Assembly: GCF_900215605.1 (NCBI RefSeq)
Contig: NZ_OBEL01000001.1
Coordinates: forward strand, 62,001-126,000
From: Cohaesibacter gelatinilyticus
GTDB taxonomy: Bacteria; Pseudomonadota; Alphaproteobacteria; Rhizobiales; Cohaesibacteraceae
DNA: 64,000 bases
Reading direction: 5' to 3'
The notes under the pieces are model-generated. The model searched no databases, was not told where the DNA came from, and worked only from the letters and a program-made list of their open reading frames with translations. Below, piece after piece: positions 3,930 through 59,054 of this stretch. The stretch's first letter is position 1; each line of letters begins with the position of its first letter. The position numbers and the translations under genes were made by a program.

Positions 3930-5330
3930 GTGGTGGATCAAAAGGGTATTTGGTCTCCGGATTTGTCTCCTTATTCGGGGCCGAAATATCGGGCGATCGT
4001 ACAAGCATTGGAAGATGATGTTGCACAAGGGCTTTTGCAACCGGGCGACAAGATGCCCACTCAGCGAGATTTGGCCTGGGATTTGGGGGTGAATCTCTCG
4101 ACGGTAACCGACGCCTATCGAGAAGCCACGAGGAAGCATTTGATTGCGGGCGAAGTGGGAAGAGGCACTTTTGTGCTGGCCAGTGCCGTAGAAGCGCAGC
4201 TTTATTCCCCCGGGCATGGGAGGTCGGGGCTTGAGGGTGGTGATGCGATTGATCTGTCAACCAATATTCCTGCCAGAGCCTTGCAGGAGAATGATGTACG
4301 TCAGGCCTTGCACGATCTGATGGAAACAGAAAATCTTGCAGAATTGATGGACTATCACAGTCCTGCTTTGCTGCAGCGCTGCCGAAAAGCGATCATTCAA
4401 TTCTATCAATCCCGTGGTTTCCACCCGAGAGCTGGCGATATTTTTCCATGCGCCGGAGCACAGGCAGCTCTTTATGCTGCCTTGCAGATGATCACCAAGC
4501 CCGATACAGCAGTTCTGGTCGAAGAGTTCACATTTCCCGGCATGAAAGCAACAGCCCGACAACTGGGGCTTCGACTTATTCCTGTGGCTATGGATGAGGA
4601 GGGATTGATCACGGAAGATTTGGATCGTGCAGCAAGAGCATCCGGTGCAAAGGTTCTCGTAGCCAGCCCCATTTTACAAAATCCCACCGGAGCCAATATG
4701 GGGCCTGTGAGAAGGCGTGAGATTACCAATTGTGTTGAACAACTGGATCTGACCCTGATTGAGGAAGATGTCTATGGAGCATTTACCTCCGATCCACCTC
4801 TCAGTCTTCACCTTGCGGGTCGCTCTTTGCTGGTCGGGGGATTTTCCAAGCTGGTTGCACCGGGGCCACGCTTTGGCTTCGTTATTTCAATGCTGGATGA
4901 GAGGCGCACTCCAGGTATCGCGACGGATGAACTGGTTCATACGACAAGTTGGATGACTGCACCGCTCATGCTGGCACTTGCTTGCCAATGGATAGAAACA
5001 GGCGCTGTTGAAGATCATATGGAATGGCAACGACAGGAAGCGCGGGCACGTCAAATCATGGTGAGACGAAAACTTGCCAATCTGATGGAGGTTCCTGCTT
5101 TGGGCAAGGCTCCCGCAGCTCCGCATCTATGGATAGATATCAGACAAGGCATGCCGAGCGGCGAATGGCTTGCAGCCTCCGCAAGTGCTCATGGTGTGGA
5201 AGTGGTGCCTGCCAGTACCTTCTGCGCTGGCCGTATGCAGCGCGACGGTCTCCGTCTTTGCCTCACGGCACCATTGGCTCGAACAACACTGATCGAAGCC
5301 TGTCAGCGTCTCGCTCGGGCTTGGGGCTAA
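3930..5330 (+). CDS. MocR-family (GntR-aminotransferase) transcriptional regulator
   Basis: A 466-residue regulator with an N-terminal GntR winged helix (about residues 10-80; MPTQRDLAWDLGVNLSTV) joined to a fold-type I aminotransferase domain. The PLP lysine is Lys307 in GGFSKLVAPGPRFGF. Such proteins bind PLP or a PLP-amino acid adduct and usually control a divergent amino-acid or vitamin B6 gene; here the candidate is the dehydratase. The open frame extends upstream to 3621, but that part overlaps the dehydratase. GTG at 3930 is preceded by GGAGG at 3918-3922 with 7-base spacing and gives the normal family length. A second GTG at 3933 is possible. Confidence 0.88.
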   Translation: MVDQKGIWSPDLSPYSGPKYRAIVQALEDDVAQGLLQPGDKMPTQRDLAWDLGVNLSTVTDAYREATRKHLIAGEVGRGTFVLASAVEAQLYSPGHGRSGLEGGDAIDLSTNIPARALQENDVRQALHDLMETENLAELMDYHSPALLQRCRKAIIQFYQSRGFHPRAGDIFPCAGAQAALYAALQMITKPDTAVLVEEFTFPGMKATARQLGLRLIPVAMDEEGLITEDLDRAARASGAKVLVASPILQNPTGANMGPVRRREITNCVEQLDLTLIEEDVYGAFTSDPPLSLHLAGRSLLVGGFSKLVAPGPRFGFVISMLDERRTPGIATDELVHTTSWMTAPLMLALACQWIETGAVEDHMEWQRQEARARQIMVRRKLANLMEVPALGKAPAAPHLWIDIRQGMPSGEWLAASASAHGVEVVPASTFCAGRMQRDGLRLCLTAPLARTTLIEACQRLARAWG

Positions 5331-5356
5331 GTGAAACGATTGAAGCAACCAATATG

Positions 5357-6970
5357 TCAGGTCTCATAGCCTTGCTGGGTTTTCAACTTGAATAGATGCA
5401 AGGTCTCTTCCCTTGGCCATTCAGGAGAGGAGAAGACGATGCCACGTTCAAGAAATTCCGGTTTATGCCAATTGGCGCGTTCTTCACGTCGACTTTCCAG
5501 ATGACTGATAATCAAATCACGCATCTGTTTCTGTCGCTCAGTTGTTACCGGATCTTCAATCCGGTTGGTGAGTTCATACGGATCAGTGTTCAAATCATAA
5601 AGCTCGTCATCGTCTCCCCAGACAGAGACATATTTCCATCCCTCGGAATAGAGAATCTTCTGATAGCTTACATCGCCGGAATGGCCAAAATGATCGCAAA
5701 TCATGACGCTGCGGCTGGTCTCACCTTTGATGAATGGAAGGAGATCTTCTCCATCAAGCCCCAGAGGATGCAAATCATTCAGATCAACGCCACCGGCATT
5801 CAGCATCGTAGCGGTCATATCGAGCAGGTTGACAGGATCTGCAACCTTGCTGCCGGGTTCGATGGTGCCGGGCCAATGCATGACAAGAGGGACGCGTCCG
5901 ACTTCTTCAGTGAAGGTGGAATATTTGTCCCAACCACCGCCATGGCTCGCGATTCCATCCCCGTGGTCGGCTGTGACAATGAAAAGGGTGTCGTCGCCTA
6001 ATCCCGTCTCGTTCAGGCAATCATAAAGGCGACCAATAGCAGCATCTGTCTGCAAACCAGCTGCATAGCAACGAGCGAGAACTGTTTGCCATGTTTTCCA
6101 ATCCTTCCAACGCTCCGACGCACGATGCAAACAGCGTAGATCCCTATGTATCCGATAGCGAAGGGGTTTATCTTTCAGATCTTCGGCAAAGCTTGGATAG
6201 GGAGCGATATCGTCAGGGTTGATCATATCGGCATAGTCTTGTGACGGATAATAGGGATGATGCGGCCCCCATAGGCTGGTGACCAGCAAGAACGGCTCCT
6301 CACGTTCTTCGTTCGCCAGGTTGCGCAATTGCTCGCAAGCCAGATTGGTGACAAAAAACTGCTCCTGAACTTCAGGACTACCAAGAAGCACACCCGCTCC
6401 GTCCATATAATCCCAGGGTTCGTCCGGATCCATCAACACCTCGGTGCCATCCAGTTTGGGCCGCATGAGGTGATGATCAATCCGGCATTTGGGCTGCTCT
6501 TCCCCAAGTTGCTCAAGATAAGCCTTGTAGGTATCAGAGCGATAGACATTGCCATATTCAGGCAGGGACCAGCCCTTGATGCCGTAATCCTCCGGCCCCC
6601 GATTGGTACCGCAATGCCATTTTCCAAAATAATGGCAATCATATCCAGCACTTGCCAAGGCTTGCGGAAACAGAATTTCATCCTCGCGAAATTCCTTTCT
6701 ATTATCGGGAATTGGATATTCGCAATTCCAACGCATGCCATGCTTGTCTGCACGTTTTCCCGTTAGCATGGAGGCTCGGGAGGGGGTGCAGATCGGAGTA
6801 ATGGCATAGGCGTTGTCAAACCAAGCACCATCTTTGGCGATGCGTTCCAGATTTGGCCAGTGATAATCATAAGCGCCATCAAATTGTGCCCGATAATGTC
6901 CCGCAAAAGCGACATGATCTGCAATGACGAGAACGATATTGGAGCGTTTGGGGGAAGAAATACTGCTCAT
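5357..6970 (-). CDS. cysteine-type sulfatase
   Basis: A 537-residue alkaline-phosphatase-superfamily sulfatase that hydrolyses sulfate (or related) esters. The formylglycine signature is CTPSRASMLTGK with Cys61, which must be oxidised to formylglycine by a maturase. Metal ligands are suggested by IADHV near residue 18 and TADHGDG near residue 335. No signal peptide is visible, so it is probably cytoplasmic and acts on an imported small sulfate or phosphonate ester. It is convergent with the MocR gene (26 bases apart) and has no sulfatase-maturase or transporter neighbour. Choline-sulfatase or phosphonate monoester hydrolase activity cannot be separated by eye. Confidence 0.87.
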   Translation of the reverse strand: MSSISSPKRSNIVLVIADHVAFAGHYRAQFDGAYDYHWPNLERIAKDGAWFDNAYAITPICTPSRASMLTGKRADKHGMRWNCEYPIPDNRKEFREDEILFPQALASAGYDCHYFGKWHCGTNRGPEDYGIKGWSLPEYGNVYRSDTYKAYLEQLGEEQPKCRIDHHLMRPKLDGTEVLMDPDEPWDYMDGAGVLLGSPEVQEQFFVTNLACEQLRNLANEEREEPFLLVTSLWGPHHPYYPSQDYADMINPDDIAPYPSFAEDLKDKPLRYRIHRDLRCLHRASERWKDWKTWQTVLARCYAAGLQTDAAIGRLYDCLNETGLGDDTLFIVTADHGDGIASHGGGWDKYSTFTEEVGRVPLVMHWPGTIEPGSKVADPVNLLDMTATMLNAGGVDLNDLHPLGLDGEDLLPFIKGETSRSVMICDHFGHSGDVSYQKILYSEGWKYVSVWGDDDELYDLNTDPYELTNRIEDPVTTERQKQMRDLIISHLESRREERANWHKPEFLERGIVFSSPEWPREETLHLFKLKTQQGYET

Positions 6971-49801: not shown

Positions 49802-52321
49802 TTACATTGAGTAGATTTCCTTGCCTGCCAAAAGAGCCTTGGCTGGTTGGGAAACGATAGGGTGCGTATTTGGATCAGCCAGCACTCCCTTGTTGAGGCC
49901 CTTATGCATCCATTCCGTCATATCTGCAAAGCTCATGGGTTTTGCAACCATATAGCCCTGAATGGAGCATTTGGAGATATGTGAAACAGCCTTGAATTGT
50001 TCGTAAGTCTCAACACCTTCACAGACCACATGCAACTGCATGAGCTTGGACATGGACATGACCACGCCTACGATGGCCTGTCCTTTGGAATTATTCTCAA
50101 TATTCTGAACGAAACTGCGATCTATCTTGATACCATCGATTGGCACACTTGAGAGATGCGAGAGTGAGGCGTAGCCAGTGCCGAAATCATCCAGCTCCAC
50201 ATGAATGCCCCGTTGACGGAAGGTTTCCAGAATGTTCGAGATATCGGCATGCGGATCATCCAGCAAGCAGGATTCTACAAACTCTACGGCCAGACAATCA
50301 GGTGCCAGATCAAAGCGCTGCATCGTGGAGAAGAAATCATCCAGTAATGATGTGCGCTTCAGGTGGGATGGTGACAGATTGATTGCCACCTTGCCAAAGT
50401 CGAGATCCAGGTCTGTCCACTGTCTTGCTGCAGACATGGCCTTTTCAAAAACAAGGCAGCCCAATTGCGAAGCAAGGCCATTTGTTTCGCTGACATCAAG
50501 GAACATACTGGGCGGCACAAGACCGTGTTCAGGGTGATTCCAGCGTATCAAAGCTTCTATGCCGGTCAGGCTTTCGTCTGAAGAACTAACTTGCGGTTGG
50601 AAATAGAGATCAAGCTGATCCTCTTCAATGGCAACACGCAATTCACTTTCGATTCGGGATTCCAGATCCACTTGTTCCTTCATTTCGGATGTGAAGAATT
50701 GATAACCGTCTCGTCCAAGCTCCTTGGTTTTATAAAGTGCCAGATCAGAGAAAACCATCAGGCTTTCACGATCAGTTCCGTCTTCGGGATACCGCGCAAT
50801 ACCAAGGCTAACAGTGGGCCAGAATGTCTTGCTTTCAAAATGCACAGGAATGGAAATGAGATCGGTCACTTCCTGGCATATTTCATCCAACGGAATATCG
50901 CCCTTGCGTTCCACCAGAGCAATGAATTCGTCTCCCCCCCAACGGTAGGGTTTGAAACTGCTGATCTGATTGCTGAACAGACTGAGACGTTCGCCAACGG
51001 TTTTGAGCAGGAAATCGCCCCCTGCATGCCCCATCGTATCGTTGACGCGTTTGAAGTTATCGAGATCAATCTGAACAATCGCAAACTTGCTGGCTGAAGA
51101 AATTTGCGAGAAGTGGGTATCAAGGTCTTTCTGACATCGTGCACGATTGGGTAACGTGGTCAGTTCATCATAAAAAGCAATATGTTCGAGTTTATCTTTG
51201 GTATCGCGAAGTTCAGCCTCTCTCCGGCGGTGATTGGTAACATCAATCAGGGTAACAATGGTATCGCCATTATCGAGCTTGCGTTCGGAAATGATCAATT
51301 GCTGACCGTTATTGAGTGTAATTTCCCGCTCATTGTCCTGATTGCTGTTGCGATAGGCAACATGTTCTGCAATCCAGGTTTCTACATCTTCATCCCCGAT
51401 GCTCCAAATGCCCGCTTCGACCCCCTTGAACAGGAAGTCTTCAAATGGCAAACCGGCATTCAAGCTATCTTTGATATCCGCATAAACCCGGCGGAAGGTT
51501 TTGTTTGCCATGACCAAACGGCCATCTTTGTCCCAAATCACAAATCCATTGCGCATGGAATTGATCGCCGAGATCAAATGCTTGTGAGTTTTGGCTTGTT
51601 CGTCTCGCGCTGTTCTTAGACGCTCGGTGGCAATCAGGGATTCCTGACGTTTGGTCTGCAGCTCGGATAAGGTGTTTTCTTGTTCGGTAACATCAAGATA
51701 AGTGGTTAGAAAGCCACCACTTGGAAGAGGTATACCTCTGATGTCCAGAACTCGACCAGAGCTCGTCCTACGCTTGAGCTCGTGAGGAACAGGGTTTCTT
51801 GCAAGCTTCACCCGCTTGCTGACTTGCTCGTCCTTGTTACAGGTCCCATATTCTCCACGTTCTGCATTAAAACGAATGATGTCTTCAAATGTGCAGCCGA
51901 CCTTTAGCTGATCTTCCGGCAGGTCGAGGAGATGGTAGAAATCCTTGTTTGCCATTTTGAGAGTCAGATCGCCATCGAAATAACTTAAACCACCAGGAAA
52001 ATACTCGAAGATGGAATTGAGCAGGCTGACATCGGCCATGGCCCGGCGAGCATTTCTGCTATGAATCAGGTAAGTAAGGCCTGAGGTGATTGCAATAATG
52101 AGGCATGCCAACACAAGTATGAAGATTACTTCCGGATGAGCTTCAAGTCCCCCCTCAGCATGATGGCTTTGCAGATTATCGTTTGACATCAGCCAGGCAA
52201 TAATTGTTCCGATCACAATGATCGGAAGACCTAGCAATAACACAGTTGTAAATCGCAACCGTATTTCACTACGCTGTATTACTTCCCGGAGGTCTCGAAA
52301 GGCCATTAAGGATATCCCCAT
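49802..52321 (-). CDS. membrane GGDEF-EAL protein with two PAS domains
   Basis: An 839-residue cyclic-di-GMP enzyme. Two membrane helices lie at about 24-45 and 63-87, PAS domains at about 98-215 and 245-365, GGDEF (462-466, intact, in YRWGGDEFIALV) and EAL (589-591 in GIEALIRWNHPEHG). DDFGTGYASLSHL in the EAL domain is also intact, so both synthesis and breakdown of c-di-GMP are possible. No RxxD inhibitory site is seen five residues before GGDEF. It may start at MAFRDL (ATG 52306) rather than 52321. It is monocistronic. Confidence 0.92.
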   Translation of the reverse strand: MGISLMAFRDLREVIQRSEIRLRFTTVLLLGLPIIVIGTIIAWLMSNDNLQSHHAEGGLEAHPEVIFILVLACLIIAITSGLTYLIHSRNARRAMADVSLLNSIFEYFPGGLSYFDGDLTLKMANKDFYHLLDLPEDQLKVGCTFEDIIRFNAERGEYGTCNKDEQVSKRVKLARNPVPHELKRRTSSGRVLDIRGIPLPSGGFLTTYLDVTEQENTLSELQTKRQESLIATERLRTARDEQAKTHKHLISAINSMRNGFVIWDKDGRLVMANKTFRRVYADIKDSLNAGLPFEDFLFKGVEAGIWSIGDEDVETWIAEHVAYRNSNQDNEREITLNNGQQLIISERKLDNGDTIVTLIDVTNHRRREAELRDTKDKLEHIAFYDELTTLPNRARCQKDLDTHFSQISSASKFAIVQIDLDNFKRVNDTMGHAGGDFLLKTVGERLSLFSNQISSFKPYRWGGDEFIALVERKGDIPLDEICQEVTDLISIPVHFESKTFWPTVSLGIARYPEDGTDRESLMVFSDLALYKTKELGRDGYQFFTSEMKEQVDLESRIESELRVAIEEDQLDLYFQPQVSSSDESLTGIEALIRWNHPEHGLVPPSMFLDVSETNGLASQLGCLVFEKAMSAARQWTDLDLDFGKVAINLSPSHLKRTSLLDDFFSTMQRFDLAPDCLAVEFVESCLLDDPHADISNILETFRQRGIHVELDDFGTGYASLSHLSSVPIDGIKIDRSFVQNIENNSKGQAIVGVVMSMSKLMQLHVVCEGVETYEQFKAVSHISKCSIQGYMVAKPMSFADMTEWMHKGLNKGVLADPNTHPIVSQPAKALLAGKEIYSM

Positions 52322-53776: not shown

Positions 53777-53866
53777 AATGGACCTGAAACAACCATATAT
53801 TATCTCTTTTTGATAATATTGGTGTCCAGAATTCCCCATACACGTTTCGAGAAGCAGGTTTGAGTG

Positions 53867-54865
53867 ATGACGATTTTGGTAACTGGTGGCTGCGGATATA
53901 TTGGAAGTCACATGACCTGGACCCTGAAAGATCAGGGACGAGATGTGGTTGTTTTCGATAATCTGTCGACGGGCTTTACAAACCAGATACCAGCGGATGT
54001 GCCTTTGATTGTCGGTGATATTGATGATCAGGCGCTAGTCGCCAAGGTTATTGATGACCACAATGTGGAAGCCATTATCCATTTTGCAGGATCCATAGTT
54101 GTACCGGAATCCATAACCGATCCGCTTGGTTATTATCTTAACAATACGGTTAAATCCCGATCCTTGATTGAAAATGCCGTAAAGGCCAAGCTCAAGGCTT
54201 TCATCTTTTCTTCAACCGCAGCGGTCTATGGAAATCCGCAAGACACATCGCGTCCCTTGATAGAAGATCTGGCACTTGATCCGATTTCGCCATATGGATC
54301 TTCCAAGTTAATGACCGAGATCATGTTGCGTGATGCCAGCCGTGCATATGGTTTGCGGTATGCCGCTCTTCGATATTTCAATGTTGCGGGAGCCGACCCG
54401 AAAGGGCGAACCGGTCAATCAACGCCTGAAGCAACCCATTTGATAAAAGTCGCCAATCAGGTTGCATTGGGCCAACGCGAGAGACTTGCTGTTTTCGGCA
54501 CTGATTATCCAACACCTGATGGAACATGCATACGCGATTACATTCACGTCAGTGATTTGGCTGCGGCACATGCGTTGGCTTTGCAGGTCTTGCTGGATGG
54601 GCAGGATAGCTTCGTTGCCAATGCAGGTTATGGACAGGGTTATTCGGTTTTGGAAGTGGTGAAAGCTGTACGGGAGCAGGTGAACGGGGCATTTGATGTC
54701 GAAATGACGGATCGCCGTCCGGGAGATCCTGCGCAATTGGTAGCTGACTCCTCGCGCTTGCGATCTCTGACTGGTTGGCAGCCGGAGCATAATGATCTGG
54801 ACCAGATTGTACGTGATGCTCTGAATTGGGAGCGCCATCTGATTGAACAATCAGTATCTGGTTAA
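53867..54865 (+). CDS. galE: UDP-glucose 4-epimerase
   Basis: A 332-residue extended SDR. The NAD motif is TGGCGYIGSH at the N-terminus, SSTAAVYG near residue 120, and the catalytic Tyr-x3-Lys is in SPYGSSKLMTE near residue 145; GTCIRDYIHVSDLAAAH is diagnostic for GalE. It interconverts UDP-glucose and UDP-galactose for exopolysaccharide or lipopolysaccharide. ATG 53867 is chosen over GTG 53864 just before it. Confidence 0.92.
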   Translation: MTILVTGGCGYIGSHMTWTLKDQGRDVVVFDNLSTGFTNQIPADVPLIVGDIDDQALVAKVIDDHNVEAIIHFAGSIVVPESITDPLGYYLNNTVKSRSLIENAVKAKLKAFIFSSTAAVYGNPQDTSRPLIEDLALDPISPYGSSKLMTEIMLRDASRAYGLRYAALRYFNVAGADPKGRTGQSTPEATHLIKVANQVALGQRERLAVFGTDYPTPDGTCIRDYIHVSDLAAAHALALQVLLDGQDSFVANAGYGQGYSVLEVVKAVREQVNGAFDVEMTDRRPGDPAQLVADSSRLRSLTGWQPEHNDLDQIVRDALNWERHLIEQSVSG

Positions 54866-55152
54866 GCCCTCTCAAGGGGCATAGGTCTATAGGTTGATGC
54901 CTGTCTTCCCTCCCAATTGTACGCGAATGCAAATCAGGTTCCGGTACAATCATGAGTGAGAAATCAAACAGATCAATCTTTTCATTCACTTGCAGCGGAG
55001 TGGCTCACCAGCAGCATCGCTCAATAGTCAAAGAGAGCTCATCAAAAGTAGAAATTAACCTTTAAACAACCATGTTTCGTTAGGGTCAGCATGGGCGAGG
55101 GTGCGGCTAAGGCATTCTGATATTAGGGAAAATACTAGGTCGTGAGGTCAAA

Positions 55153-57327
55153 ATGCTGGAGCTCATCCAGTTCTTTATGTCCATAGCGGGAATTGCGATC
55201 CCCCTAGGATTGCTTCTTATCATGGCAGGACGTGTGCGGTATCGAAACGAACTGGATACGCTGGTTCGTATTACGTCTGCATTCGGCATCACGATTGCGG
55301 CATTCTGGCTGATCGGTCATAGCCTCTATTCTTCTCCTAGTCTTTGGGGATTTGTAGGTTGGAACTGGGGAGCCATCGACCATTATTCCAACAGCATGAC
55401 GAATGGTCTAAATCTGCGAACAATTTTCCTTTTTGCGATACCGTCAATATTGGTGGCGTCTACGATGGCTGAGCGAGGTAGATGGCTGGCAGGCAATATT
55501 CTGGTAGCGATTGTCGCCGCATTCATTTTCCCGATCGTGGCGCATTGGGGCTGGCACAATAGTCACAATAGCGAAGGTTGGTTGATCACTCGCGGATTTA
55601 TGGATTCAGGTGGCGCAGTCGTATTCTTTGCAGCGGCAGGATTTGCTGCTCTGGCGGCATCCATAGTTATTGGTCCTCGCATGATGCGGTTCCCCGATCA
55701 GGCTTCCCGCCCGAGAGGGCATAGCCCAACATTCACATTTCTGGGAGCAATGATCCTCATTATCGGCTTGGCCGTCATGACCGCTGGTCAGCATAATCAG
55801 GCTGCACTCATGTCCGAGGCCTTTCTTCATGTAGTGATTGGGTCTACGTTTGCAGGAGCGGCAGCTCTTGGGCTTTTGATCATGTGGCCTGAACGGGTTT
55901 CCGCCATGGATCTGCTCAATTCCAGTTTGGCCGGGGGGATCGCATTGATTGCTTTCGCCAGCAAAGCCAGCCCCGCCAGCGCAGCTCTTGTTGGCATGCT
56001 TGCTGGTGCCATGGGAATTGGTTTGCGCAATATTCTGATGCAGCTGGAAATTGATGATGTAGGGGATCTGATTTCGTCCTCTATTGCAGGCGGCGTCCTG
56101 GGTGGGGCCATTGCTCCGATCATGGTATCTGGAGAGAGAGGGGATCTGCTCAACAATCTCTTTCTGCAATGGCTGGGCATTGCTGCCATATGCCTATGGG
56201 CATTTCTGTGCGTTTGGGCAGTTGCCAAGGTGCTTGATCAGGTCTTTGGCATGAGAGTGGATCCGGCTGATGAAGTTCGTGGCCTGTCTTTTGCCAATTT
56301 TGCAATGCAAAGTGAACCCGATTACGTCATTTCATATATGTCACATAATTCGATTCTGGGCTCTGCCACGCAAAAGGATAGCGGCGAGGAACTGGGACGG
56401 CTCTCAGCAGATGTAAGCAACAAGGTTGTCAATCTGCGCAACGAAATTCGTAGGGCAATCAATCGTATTCAGTCGACGTCTCCCGATGCCAAACTGGGAG
56501 CTGCCATGGCGGCCCGGATGCGAATGTCCGATGATACATTGCGGGTCAATGCCGAAGATGTTCTGCTTTTGCTTGAACGTGTTCTTTCTCGCGACAATGC
56601 TGCAGGTTATGGACCGGAGCTGCGTAGTTGGTCTATCGAGGCGATTGAATTGCTGCTTGTTCCGACAATGTCGGATTTGGAGCAATATATCCGCCATATG
56701 CCATTGCAGGCCGAGCTGGAAGAATTGGAAGCGATGGTCATCGGCGCAACTGATTCCATCTCGCGCTGCGCCCATCAGATCGAAATGGTGGCTGATTATT
56801 GTGATGCAGATAGCGATGGCTTCTTTGTTCGTGATCATACCTGTGATTTATCTGCAGTTCTGCGAGAACGTAGCAAAGTGCTGTTGGCATCTGCAGAAAT
56901 TCGCAACAACCCGTTGCAGGTAGATCTGCGCGACACAGAGCATCTGATTGTAAATGGTGATGCCAAGGCCCTTTCGAGAATGATTATGTTGTCCGCAGAA
57001 GGAGCCTTCAATCGCCTTGTGGCAGGAAGAGGGGATCCGGTACGTCTGGAGCTTCGCGAGCATATTGGTGGCGACCATATCCTATTTGAATGCATCGACA
57101 CAGGTGCCGCTCTCTCCTCGCGTCAAGTCAGAGCAATCACCAGCCCATTTACGGCGATTGGCTCTCTTGGCGACTTGGGCTTTGCACAGATTCTGCCCTT
57201 GATTTTGGCAACCCGATTGATTGAGGCAATTGGTGGCGAGTTTACTTTGTCGAGTGAGCATGGCTTGGGAACCTTGATGCAAGCGCGATTACGCAAAGCC
57301 CGGCAGTCAAAGTCGGTCGCTGCCTGA
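55153..57327 (+). CDS. Amt-like membrane domain fused to a degenerate histidine-kinase-like ATPase domain
   Basis: A 724-residue protein. Residues about 1-365 hold 10-11 membrane helices that match the ammonium-transporter (Amt/Rh) fold by motif: HWGWHNSHNSEGWL, DSGGAVVFFAAAGFAALAA ending in GPR (131-176), and the second-half NSSLAGGIALIAF...DDVGDLISSSIAGG (256-314). At the places of the twin pore histidines I read Phe159 and Ser310, so ammonium conduction is unlikely. Residues about 380-545 are helical (coiled-coil-like), with no recognisable phospho-accepting H-box. Residues about 590-715 resemble an HATPase_c domain (CIDTG for the G1 box, then GDLGFAQILPLILATRLIEA and SSEHGLGTLMQ) but the N-box is degenerate. 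It is probably a signalling protein, either a sensor that has lost transport or an inactive relay. It is convergent with the kinase-like gene at 57354. Confidence 0.72.
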   Translation: MLELIQFFMSIAGIAIPLGLLLIMAGRVRYRNELDTLVRITSAFGITIAAFWLIGHSLYSSPSLWGFVGWNWGAIDHYSNSMTNGLNLRTIFLFAIPSILVASTMAERGRWLAGNILVAIVAAFIFPIVAHWGWHNSHNSEGWLITRGFMDSGGAVVFFAAAGFAALAASIVIGPRMMRFPDQASRPRGHSPTFTFLGAMILIIGLAVMTAGQHNQAALMSEAFLHVVIGSTFAGAAALGLLIMWPERVSAMDLLNSSLAGGIALIAFASKASPASAALVGMLAGAMGIGLRNILMQLEIDDVGDLISSSIAGGVLGGAIAPIMVSGERGDLLNNLFLQWLGIAAICLWAFLCVWAVAKVLDQVFGMRVDPADEVRGLSFANFAMQSEPDYVISYMSHNSILGSATQKDSGEELGRLSADVSNKVVNLRNEIRRAINRIQSTSPDAKLGAAMAARMRMSDDTLRVNAEDVLLLLERVLSRDNAAGYGPELRSWSIEAIELLLVPTMSDLEQYIRHMPLQAELEELEAMVIGATDSISRCAHQIEMVADYCDADSDGFFVRDHTCDLSAVLRERSKVLLASAEIRNNPLQVDLRDTEHLIVNGDAKALSRMIMLSAEGAFNRLVAGRGDPVRLELREHIGGDHILFECIDTGAALSSRQVRAITSPFTAIGSLGDLGFAQILPLILATRLIEAIGGEFTLSSEHGLGTLMQARLRKARQSKSVAA

Positions 57328-57353
57328 CAACACAGGATATGATGGATCTGGGT

Positions 57354-59054
57354 TTAATGCAGAATGCCTGGAAAGCCACGATCACATGCTTTGCCCAGCA
57401 GACCGTGAGCACGATGTAGCATGTCTTCTATTTCCATGGATGCATCCAAAATTGTCCAGCCAGCTTCAGCTAGCCGATTGGATTTGACGGTTTCCTTGTT
57501 ATCAGTGAGCCATATCGGAACCAATACTGCTTCTGTTGCAACGGCAAATTGGCCCATGGCATTGAGACATGCAGGATGCAACGCACCCCATTCCAGCAAT
57601 ACAGAGAAATTGGCTTCCAGGCCGTAGCGTGCTTTTTCGAGCATATATTCATGGACCAGATCATAAAGACCTGCTTGATGGCGTGTCTGCTGATGACCGC
57701 TGGGATCAAGAAGAGTTTTCTCATGATTCGTGCTTAGCCACAGTCCACCGGGCATGCGCCCCAAAGCAGGGGATAATGATTGTGCAAATTCGGTTTTCAT
57801 CTTGCTGTCAGGGCCACCCAAGACAATTAGTATCTTGGGCTCTTCCAGCAAGCTTTCCATTGCTGTTCGCACAAAGCCTTCAAAGGCAGAAGCCAAAGAA
57901 CAGCGTGCACCGGACCGACAAGCTTCATCTATCGGACAAATGGCGAGCGCTCGGTCAATTGAGCGTACAAACATCATCAGACTCAGAGCCCGTAGACCAT
58001 CCAGATTGCTATTGTCCAGAAGGGAGCCAAAATAGCGGGAGAAAATCCAGTTGCTCGCTTCGCGCTGACCCTGAGACCACAGATCGATGAGCAATCCTGC
58101 AATATCAAACAGGCAATCGCCACGTTGTGGTGAGTTGTCAACAAGACGAGGGTTGATCAGTTGTGGTACGCCATCTTGGGAAACAAAATTGGCAAGACGC
58201 ATGTTGCCATGAAGTGCTTGTACCTGTCCATGCCGAGCGCGCATATGCAATAGAGGTTTGAGTTGTTCATTCAGTTGCAGTGCCTGATCAAGACTGGCTT
58301 TCAGACCGCGTAAACCAGGTTGTGGGGCGAAAAGCTGCGGACGTTTGCCAAAGCTCTTCAAATGGGCCTCTAGCCACTCCCCCCAATTTTCCTGATCATA
58401 GCTGGTTGACCAACTATGTAGGTCGACCAGATATTGAGCCAGTGAACAACAATCATCAAGCGACAGATCTTCCAGTCCACCAATCTTGTCAAAAGTCTGA
58501 TTGTAGTCATACCGCTGCATTTGAACCAGCCAATCAATCAGCACCCATCCCTCAGGAGCTTGGAAGCCATCAATCTGCTGCACGCCTTCTCCCAGTTTCA
58601 GAGTGTTTGGCCCTCTCAATACTGGCCGTAAACAAAGATAGATTCCAGGACTGGTGGTCTTGCCAAAATTCAACTCTGCTTGTGCCAGAATACCGCGCTG
58701 GGCAACATCAAGCTCATCGCGACATCCCATGGGACGACTGCGGCGAATGCGATAGGTATGCTGTTCCGTGAAGTACAGGATACTGTCGACCAGCCCCAGC
58801 CGGTCTACACTCGTTTCAAGCCCATAGCTTTTTGATTTACCGAGAAACACTAGTGTTTCCTTCTGATCATCAAGGGGGCAGGGAGGTTTGGATGGCTCGC
58901 TTGCTTCTGGCAGTTCAAGTGGACAGGACAGGACATTTTTCGACGATGTGTCCCTCTGATTTGCATCAGTGATATGATTGACAGGCGAGCCCATGGTTGG
59001 TCTTGGTCCTTTGTTTGGAGCCTGCACCTTGCCGATAAAATGTCTATTTGGCAT
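57354..59054 (-). CDS. degenerate COG2187-like protein (phosphotransferase plus P-loop regions)
   Basis: A 566-residue protein with the layout of the bifunctional aminoglycoside-phosphotransferase-like/P-loop kinase family. An N-terminal disordered stretch (1-60) precedes a kinase-like region (ETSVDRLGLVDSILYF near 80; GWVLIDWLVQMQRYD near 170). The catalytic loop reads LHGNMRLANF (281-290) where HGDxHxxN is expected, so the base Asp is Asn284. The metal-binding segment is INPRLVDN (300-307). The C-terminal P-loop reads GGPDSKMKTE (413-422) instead of GxxGxGKST. Both active sites seem lost, suggesting a binding or regulatory role. It is convergent with the Amt-like gene, 26 bases apart. Family assignment rests on layout and a few motifs. 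Confidence 0.6.
   Translation of the reverse strand: MPNRHFIGKVQAPNKGPRPTMGSPVNHITDANQRDTSSKNVLSCPLELPEASEPSKPPCPLDDQKETLVFLGKSKSYGLETSVDRLGLVDSILYFTEQHTYRIRRSRPMGCRDELDVAQRGILAQAELNFGKTTSPGIYLCLRPVLRGPNTLKLGEGVQQIDGFQAPEGWVLIDWLVQMQRYDYNQTFDKIGGLEDLSLDDCCSLAQYLVDLHSWSTSYDQENWGEWLEAHLKSFGKRPQLFAPQPGLRGLKASLDQALQLNEQLKPLLHMRARHGQVQALHGNMRLANFVSQDGVPQLINPRLVDNSPQRGDCLFDIAGLLIDLWSQGQREASNWIFSRYFGSLLDNSNLDGLRALSLMMFVRSIDRALAICPIDEACRSGARCSLASAFEGFVRTAMESLLEEPKILIVLGGPDSKMKTEFAQSLSPALGRMPGGLWLSTNHEKTLLDPSGHQQTRHQAGLYDLVHEYMLEKARYGLEANFSVLLEWGALHPACLNAMGQFAVATEAVLVPIWLTDNKETVKSNRLAEAGWTILDASMEIEDMLHRAHGLLGKACDRGFPGILH

Follow-up and report, generated by a model that had tools for sequence, protein, structure and literature searches.

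What remains of a membrane receptor when its transport pore and its kinase have both lost their defining residues? This question is raised by a gene in a 64,000-nucleotide stretch of Cohaesibacter gelatinilyticus DNA (contig NZ_OBEL01000001.1, positions 62,001 to 126,000), which as a whole is called the window here. The gene lies at 55153..57327 on the + strand and is an exact, intact open frame of 724 codons. According to the frame, Pfam and the predicted models, it encodes an Amt-fold membrane domain, a pseudo-dimerization and histidine phosphotransfer (pseudo-DHp) domain and a pseudo-catalytic and ATP-binding (pseudo-CA) domain. Judged by the defining residues in their sequences, this protein and its orthologues (the window family), which belong to a group of marine bacteria, would be neither functional Amt transporters nor histidine kinases, with the Amt fold and the DHp-CA fold retained. 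We favour, at a probability of about 0.55, the reading that the protein descends from Amt-histidine kinase (Amt-HK) receptors and acts as a non-transporting, kinase-dead receptor which regulates two-component proteins by contact.

The Amt domain and its pore

Pfam PF00909 (Ammonium_transp) matched residues 14-385 of the protein with an E value of 1.7e-43. The full-length AlphaFold2 model, built from 39 alignment rows, had a mean predicted local distance difference test score (pLDDT) of 68.7. Block means were mostly 75-96 in the Amt helices; beyond residue 550 they were 25-62, and that C-terminal half was not used. In a Foldseek comparison of this model with the PDB, Sd-Amt1 (8qj4, 8qj3), Ks-Amt5 (6eu6) and then Af-Amt1 and AmtB came at the top, and ranks 1-12 were all Amt entries with target template modelling scores of 0.80-0.89. 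The domain with its cytoplasmic tail covers residues 2-392 (55156..56328, +) by these three lines of evidence. The Amt fold proposed in a first-pass annotation of this DNA is thus confirmed.

The same annotation had put Phe159 and Ser310 at the two positions of the twin histidines that conduct ammonium. Three alignments agree with it: window protein against Sd-Amt1, family profile against structures, and an alignment of 58 Amt-domain proteins. For the second, the profile was aligned to 6eu6 (Ks-Amt5), 2b2f (Af-Amt1) and 2npd, an AmtB variant whose own residue at the first position is Phe. Phe159 (55627..55629, +), at the place of AmtB His168, is Phe in all 18 orthologues, and Ser310 (56080..56082, +), at the place of AmtB His318, is Phe in 14, Ala in two, Ser in one and Thr in one of them. 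In the 58-row alignment both histidines are present in 40/40 rows from outside the family and either one in 0/18 family rows. Seven loci which were checked later (L217, L223, L226-L230) also have both. Neither a histidine at the pore positions nor a fold other than Amt came out of the structure prediction and alignment. Asp151 (55603..55605, +), the equivalent of AmtB Asp160, is kept in 17/18 orthologues. At residues 174-176, the GPR motif, the orthologues have Gly, then Pro in 13, Ala in four and Thr in one, and then Arg, so these two features do remain, as had been noted from the sequence.

For comparison we used 15 Amt-HKs from other families of the class (15 of L072-L087, L076 being of the GGDEF-EAL type). 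All 15 keep the twin histidines, the Phe gate and the equivalents of W212 and S219, together with the H-box and the N-box Asn of the kinase part. In the window family both residues of the Phe gate (F107 and F215 equivalents, columns 93 and 209), as well as W212 (column 206) and S219 (column 213), are replaced in 18/18 orthologues, and the S219 position is Gln in 12/18. The ammonium ligands described within the membrane for Ks-Amt5 are Q24, E31, N47, D50, T51, T109 and T112 (PMC5764959). The first six positions are replaced in 18/18 orthologues and T112 in 13/18, the other five having Thr. All 15 Amt-HKs retain Q24, E31, N47, D50 and T109; T51 and T112 say little, as neither position is Thr in these kinases.

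We therefore predict from these residues that the window protein does not transport ammonium. This can only be a prediction, since published assays of AmtB without the twin histidines disagree: in yeast, E. coli AmtB with both replaced by Ala no longer supported growth on ammonium (PMC3647058), and a review notes that such variants, when assayed in other ways, let ammonium pass in a channel-like manner (PMC10433425). Non-transport becomes more likely with a bulky Phe in place of the first His and with the rest of the path lost as well.

Loss of conduction does not have to mean loss of the ligand. The protein may still sense ammonium or methylammonium as a receptor of the Ks-Amt5 type, with an altered binding site and with output via a partner kinase, which we consider possible but clearly less probable than the favoured reading. 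Its fold is closest to both solved sensor Amts, and Ks-Amt5 is described as a receptor that can do without conduction (PMC5764959, PMC10433425). Besides the Asp160 equivalent, the equivalent of Trp148, the filter Trp of the S1 site, is kept in 12/18 orthologues, which speaks for an ammonium receptor and against our reading. On the other side stand the replacement of six of the seven Ks-Amt5 ligand positions in every orthologue, the loss of S219 and both gate Phe, and the relaxed periplasmic loops and pore helices.

This relaxation was seen when mean pairwise identities were calculated by segment for 13/18 family rows and 13/15 Amt-HK rows, the segments being delimited by hand on the model. For the transmembrane helices (TM) TM3, TM5, TM6 and TM10 the identity is 0.80, 0.83, 0.68 and 0.86 in the Amt-HKs and 0.48, 0.59, 0.33 and 0.58 in the window family, and for the periplasmic loops it is 0.50 and 0.33. 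The cytoplasmic loops are on average level (0.60 in the Amt-HKs, 0.58 in the window family). Cytoplasmic loop 5 (residues 173-193; 55669..55731, +), with the pattern R-x-x-R-F and P-R-G-x-x-P, is more conserved in the window family, at 0.66 vs 0.52, as are the CA domain (0.55 vs 0.47) and TM9 (0.52 vs 0.39). For Ks-Amt5, a contact between loop 5 and the linker of the next subunit has been proposed (PMC5764959).

As a tentative further reading, the Amt barrel might be used in an inverted way. It would then read a cytoplasmic state rather than external ammonium, as a response regulator, a PII protein or a partner kinase docks on its cytoplasmic face and on the kinase-like tail, and serve as a trimeric membrane integrator, a pseudo-transporter joined to a pseudokinase that neither transports nor phosphorylates.

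A search of the window's genome with the Amt profile gave the window protein and two other Amts only. Since Amt proteins are described as trimers (PMC5764959), the window protein could join canonical Amt trimers as a subunit that regulates or anchors them, with the kinase-like tail as a docking site. The presence of the two other Amt genes fits with this. Non-conducting Rh subunits play such a part towards RhAG, although we found no passage on this in the literature searched. However, the protein is only 26% identical over 387 positions to one canonical Amt of the same genome and shows no genetic linkage to the canonical Amts of that genome (contig C3 vs C1), so a role as a trimer subunit seems rather unlikely.

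Other Amt fusions occur in the genus: L025, L033 and similar loci encode Amt-HAMP-MCP (831 aa) and Amt-PAS-GGDEF-EAL (at least 995 aa) proteins with the twin histidines intact.

The kinase-like tail

HATPase_c was matched in the window protein at residues 617-715 with 21.4 bits, which is below the Pfam gathering score of 26.4, and in 14/14 family C-termini scanned (E<=1). Pfam gave no HisKA match in the window protein or in the scanned family C-termini, and no PAS match in the window protein, where the Amt domain occupies the sensor part. A separate AlphaFold2 model of residues 400-724, built from 25 alignment rows with a mean pLDDT of 75, contains three parts. A helical hairpin lies between the Amt tail and the DHp-like part (residues 400-480; 56350..56592, +) and has block-mean pLDDT values of 37-73. 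The DHp-like two-helix hairpin (residues 487-555; 56611..56817, +; pLDDT about 64-70) has no His before residue 515. The CA fold, HATPase_c-like with degenerate catalytic boxes, is better predicted (residues 562-718; 56836..57306, +; block-mean pLDDT 68-92).

By profile comparison the tail is homologous to kinases. A C-terminal profile of 14 family members was aligned by hhalign with the tails of five Amt-HKs and one other kinase at a probability of 98.3 and an E value of 1.8e-14. Foldseek of the tail model placed DivL first, RetS next and HK853 third (E 3.7e-10 to about 1e-8). The solved sequences closest to the C-terminal profile were likewise DivL (4q20) and RetS (6dk7/6dk8), HK853 being far weaker (E 0.011).

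The SHELRTP H-box, present in 15/15 Amt-HKs, is found in 0/18 family proteins. We took its place to be at about residue 499, based on same-order relatives and on the tail model; here the 18 orthologues have Glu in nine, Asp in seven, Gln in one and Arg in one. No His is common to all 18 at any candidate H-box place, nor in any column of 390-600. In the N-box remnant (residues 612-623; 56986..57021, +) the Mg-binding Asn position, 617, is Gly in 15, Ala in two and Leu in one, and Glu616 is invariant; the Asn is thus kept in 0/18 family proteins vs 15/15 Amt-HKs. The DTG of the G1 box (residues 649-651; 57097..57105, +) is invariant in 18/18. The first-pass annotation had described the C-terminal half in just this way, with DTG kept, no H-box and a poor N-box, and was right in these points; the G2-like segment that it also reported is absent. 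In place of the G2 box (residues 672-686; 57166..57210, +) there is LGLxQILPL, or a near-identical segment, in 17/18 orthologues. A GLGT at about residues 704-707 is, we assume, the usual last Gly-rich stretch of HATPase_c-like domains.

If the favoured reading is right, the Amt part would form a membrane trimer that no longer conducts ammonium and serves as receptor or scaffold, perhaps for a ligand other than ammonium. Its conformation would reach the kinase-like module by way of the C-terminal helix and loop 5. This module, like DivL, may be a docking surface for a response regulator or for an intact histidine kinase, and the docking would tune the activity of the partner up or down, without the module phosphorylating anything itself. 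We suggest signalling by contact because the tail keeps the DHp-CA shape which response regulators and kinases recognise, as in DivL.

Several observations weigh against this. The cytoplasmic loops at residues 28-40 and 104-112 are less conserved than in the Amt-HKs (0.70 vs 0.86 and 0.53 vs 0.74), and so are the 400-480 hairpin (0.41 vs 0.58) and the DHp-like part (0.46 vs 0.61, with 35 comparable columns in the Amt-HKs). The H-box place differs by method, being at about 420 in one alignment, at about 476 in hhalign and in a gap in the 58-row alignment. The high ranking of DivL and RetS could partly reflect common degeneracy. The invariance of DTG and Glu616 leaves room for some binding of nucleotide. 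Of the family contexts scanned, 0/9 have a kinase near the gene whose H-box is intact. Finally, columns 515, 541 and 562 are His in 17/18 orthologues each and column 429 in 9/18, so an unorthodox phosphorylation site is possible.

The last point would make the protein a kinase or a relay after all, phosphorylated at His 515, 541 or 562 in cis or by another kinase. The near-invariance of these three residues is what recommends this explanation. None of them lies in an H-box-like motif, and all are replaced somewhere in the family: L022 has Arg for H515 and Gly for H541, and L006 has Arg for H562. Moreover, the N-box Asn is lost in 18/18, which makes self-phosphorylation unlikely. We regard a kinase or relay function as improbable.

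Family, descent and gene neighbourhood

Orthologues were searched in 20 genomes of the family. A full-length orthologue was found in 18 of them, namely in 17/18 genomes of the window's own genus, in the single genome of genus g3 (30% identity) and not in the single genome of genus g2. The only genus genome without it, G006, is 64% complete. No further member without the twin histidines was found among 397 genomes of the order, 385 of the class and 299 of the phylum at strict thresholds, and all inspected matches from outside the family have both pore histidines; the inspection covered above-threshold matches with a fetched locus, and the genome samples (297, 385, 397 and 299) partly overlap. 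A more distant family with the double loss could have escaped this search. The window family had no match in a search of viral contigs. Amt genes as such were common on IMG/VR contigs called viral, some of which may be host sequence, and 80 of 149 confirmed matches were kept (L088-L167).

Since many catalytic residues are gone at once, one could think of a decaying gene on its way to a pseudogene, or of an assembly artefact. However, the open frame is of near-equal length in all 18 genomes and many residues are invariant, both in an alignment of 14 sequences and in one of 18. For the ratio of nonsynonymous to synonymous substitution rates (dN/dS), nine overlapping orthologue pairs gave 27 values in the CA, DHp-like and Amt parts, of which the 24 finite ones were 0.020-0.140. 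These values are only indicative, since dS is at least 0.8 in 16/24 finite values and 3/27 are saturated, which tells against a firm conclusion on our side as well. The low dN/dS points to selection rather than decay, and we give decay or artefact hardly any credit. The losses of the pore histidines and of the kinase motifs, noticed in a single protein at first, are thus shared by 18/18 orthologues under purifying selection.

A third set, intermediate in its residues, consists of 15 same-order proteins (L035-L042, L044-L050), 12 of which come from one genus (f20 g22). Both pore histidines are present in 15/15 and SHELRTP in 0/15 (GRTFRQP, for example, stands instead). The N-box Asn is kept in 8/15 and D-S/T-G in 14/15. 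The gate is partly lost, and so is S219 in part, its position being Gln in 11/15. In L038 a His stands at the presumed H-box or next to it, and this protein was counted as lacking the H-box with reserve. In a Pfam scan L035, L036, L038 and L040 had no HisKA at E 0.01, and the Amt-HK L077 had it. One of the loci checked later, L217 (genome G741), has a 451-aa Amt frame with a HATPase-like stretch behind it in another frame, likely a frameshift in an L035-like gene.

In the tree the window family forms one clade (support 100/98), and a branch (98/96) separates all 33 rows that lack the H-box motif from the 15 Amt-HKs. When three long rows (L038, L040 and L023_2772) were left out, 31 rows lay on one side with an SH-aLRT of 96. 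The simplest reading, which we hold tentatively, is that the phospho-histidine was lost once, before the pore histidines, and that the latter were lost in the window family only. This assumes a root among the Amt-HKs or the canonical Amts, and it is tentative because the root is uncertain and several branches are long (L022, L035, the f20 group and the window group). We infer descent of the window family from alphaproteobacterial Amt-HKs because the architecture and the linker are common to both. The earlier description of the protein as a non-transporting, non-phosphorylating descendant of Amt-kinase sensors is therefore supported in part: the lost pore histidines and kinase motifs and the kinase homology of the tail bear it out, and the descent itself is deduced from architecture and linker. 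Amt-HKs, Amt proteins without the H-box and the window family form a graded series, on which one can test in what order the losses came and whether phosphorylation gave way to contact signalling.

For possible partners, the window's own neighbourhood was judged by Pfam of six neighbours and the contexts of relatives with high GC content by a motif scan only. A loose response-regulator pattern was found in 4/9 family contexts; in three of these the matching gene seems UspA-like by sequence. The third set gave a different picture. In the f20 genus (L062, L063, L066-L069) a kinase with SHELRTP adjoins the Amt gene or lies one gene off, on the opposite strand, in 6/6 contexts, and the one next to L063 has HisKA and HATPase_c by Pfam. 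No SHELRTP kinase was found in the three contexts from other third-set genera. It is possible that the f20 Amt protein and the neighbouring kinase form a receptor-kinase pair. The best match of this kinase in the window's genome (contig C1, 867544-868980) is 53% identical, is one of 12 kinase matches and is unlinked to the window gene. This may be a lead to a partner, and it comes from one genus, where synteny alone could explain it.

In eight other contexts of the genus the genes upstream are an MFS gene and members of clusters c4 and c5 (8/8) and c6 (7/8), which in L053 are DUF2157, DUF4401 and GDYXXLXY. In the window and in L001 (JAOXSH010000129.1) galE (window 53864-54865) replaces the c4-c6 genes. 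The convergent neighbour on the other side (57354-59054, -) encodes 566 aa without a Pfam match at 0.001 and is kept beside the gene in the genus (cluster c2). A PAS-GGDEF-EAL gene (49802-52321) lies three genes from the Amt gene in the window, and next to the Amt gene of the most distant orthologue, L060, there is a GGDEF-type gene by motif (5169-6716).

No sigma-54-like site was found between galE and the gene with at most one mismatch; across the window this pattern had 142 matches vs 95.6 expected, mostly inside genes. In a scan of 54800-57500 there were three promoter-like sites vs 3.0 in shuffles, none of them upstream of the gene, and five terminator-like sites vs 2.6 in shuffles, all within the gene.

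Comparison with known systems

One of the closest known systems is Ks-Amt5 of Ca. Kuenenia stuttgartiensis (PMC5764959, PDB 6eu6), which like the window protein has an Amt domain fused to DHp-CA and which by fold and sequence comes next after Sd-Amt1. Its Amt part is reported to bind ammonium without translocating it (PMC10433425), and a selectivity filter, a Phe gate, the twin histidines, an ammonium site in the membrane and a phosphorylated His coupled to ammonium are described for it (PMC5764959). In contrast, the window family lacks the twin histidines, the gate, Ser219 and nearly all of the ammonium site, with the filter Trp surviving in the fraction of orthologues given above. Sd-Amt1 of Shewanella denitrificans (8qj3, 8qj4, 8qpf) is the closest solved Amt domain by both sequence and fold; unlike the window family, it has both pore histidines in the alignment. 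The output domain of Sd-Amt1 is a diguanylate cyclase.

The alphaproteobacterial Amt-HisKA-HATPase proteins have the same architecture as the window family, and their kinase tails match by profile. The third set resembles the window family in its similar length and in having no SHELRTP, and differs from it in keeping both pore histidines.

For the tail, the second-best solved match is RetS of Pseudomonas, whose source is not an alphaproteobacterium. RetS is a contact regulator of GacS, and its sensor part is other than Amt. The top match is DivL of Caulobacter, in which the phospho-His is replaced as in the window family. DivL is reported to work without kinase activity, by binding DivK, and is described as having PAS sensors and keeping the other kinase boxes (PMC4211667). 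Unlike the window protein, it has no Amt domain. By analogy, the window protein may work like DivL without being its orthologue. Another pseudokinase, ChrS, has been reported to form heterodimers with HrrS (PMC9491836).

Contact-acting, kinase-dead histidine kinases such as DivL and non-transporting Amt receptors such as Ks-Amt5 are thus known separately. In the literature searched, which covered few subscription journals, we found no combination of the two, no Amt protein with a dead kinase and no natural bacterial Amt without the twin histidines. A conserved protein which has both folds and neither transport path nor kinase motifs would be a natural test of Amt signalling by shape only. The first-pass annotation went further than the evidence in proposing that it may be a new type of membrane regulator, since its DivL-type and Ks-Amt5-type parts are each known.

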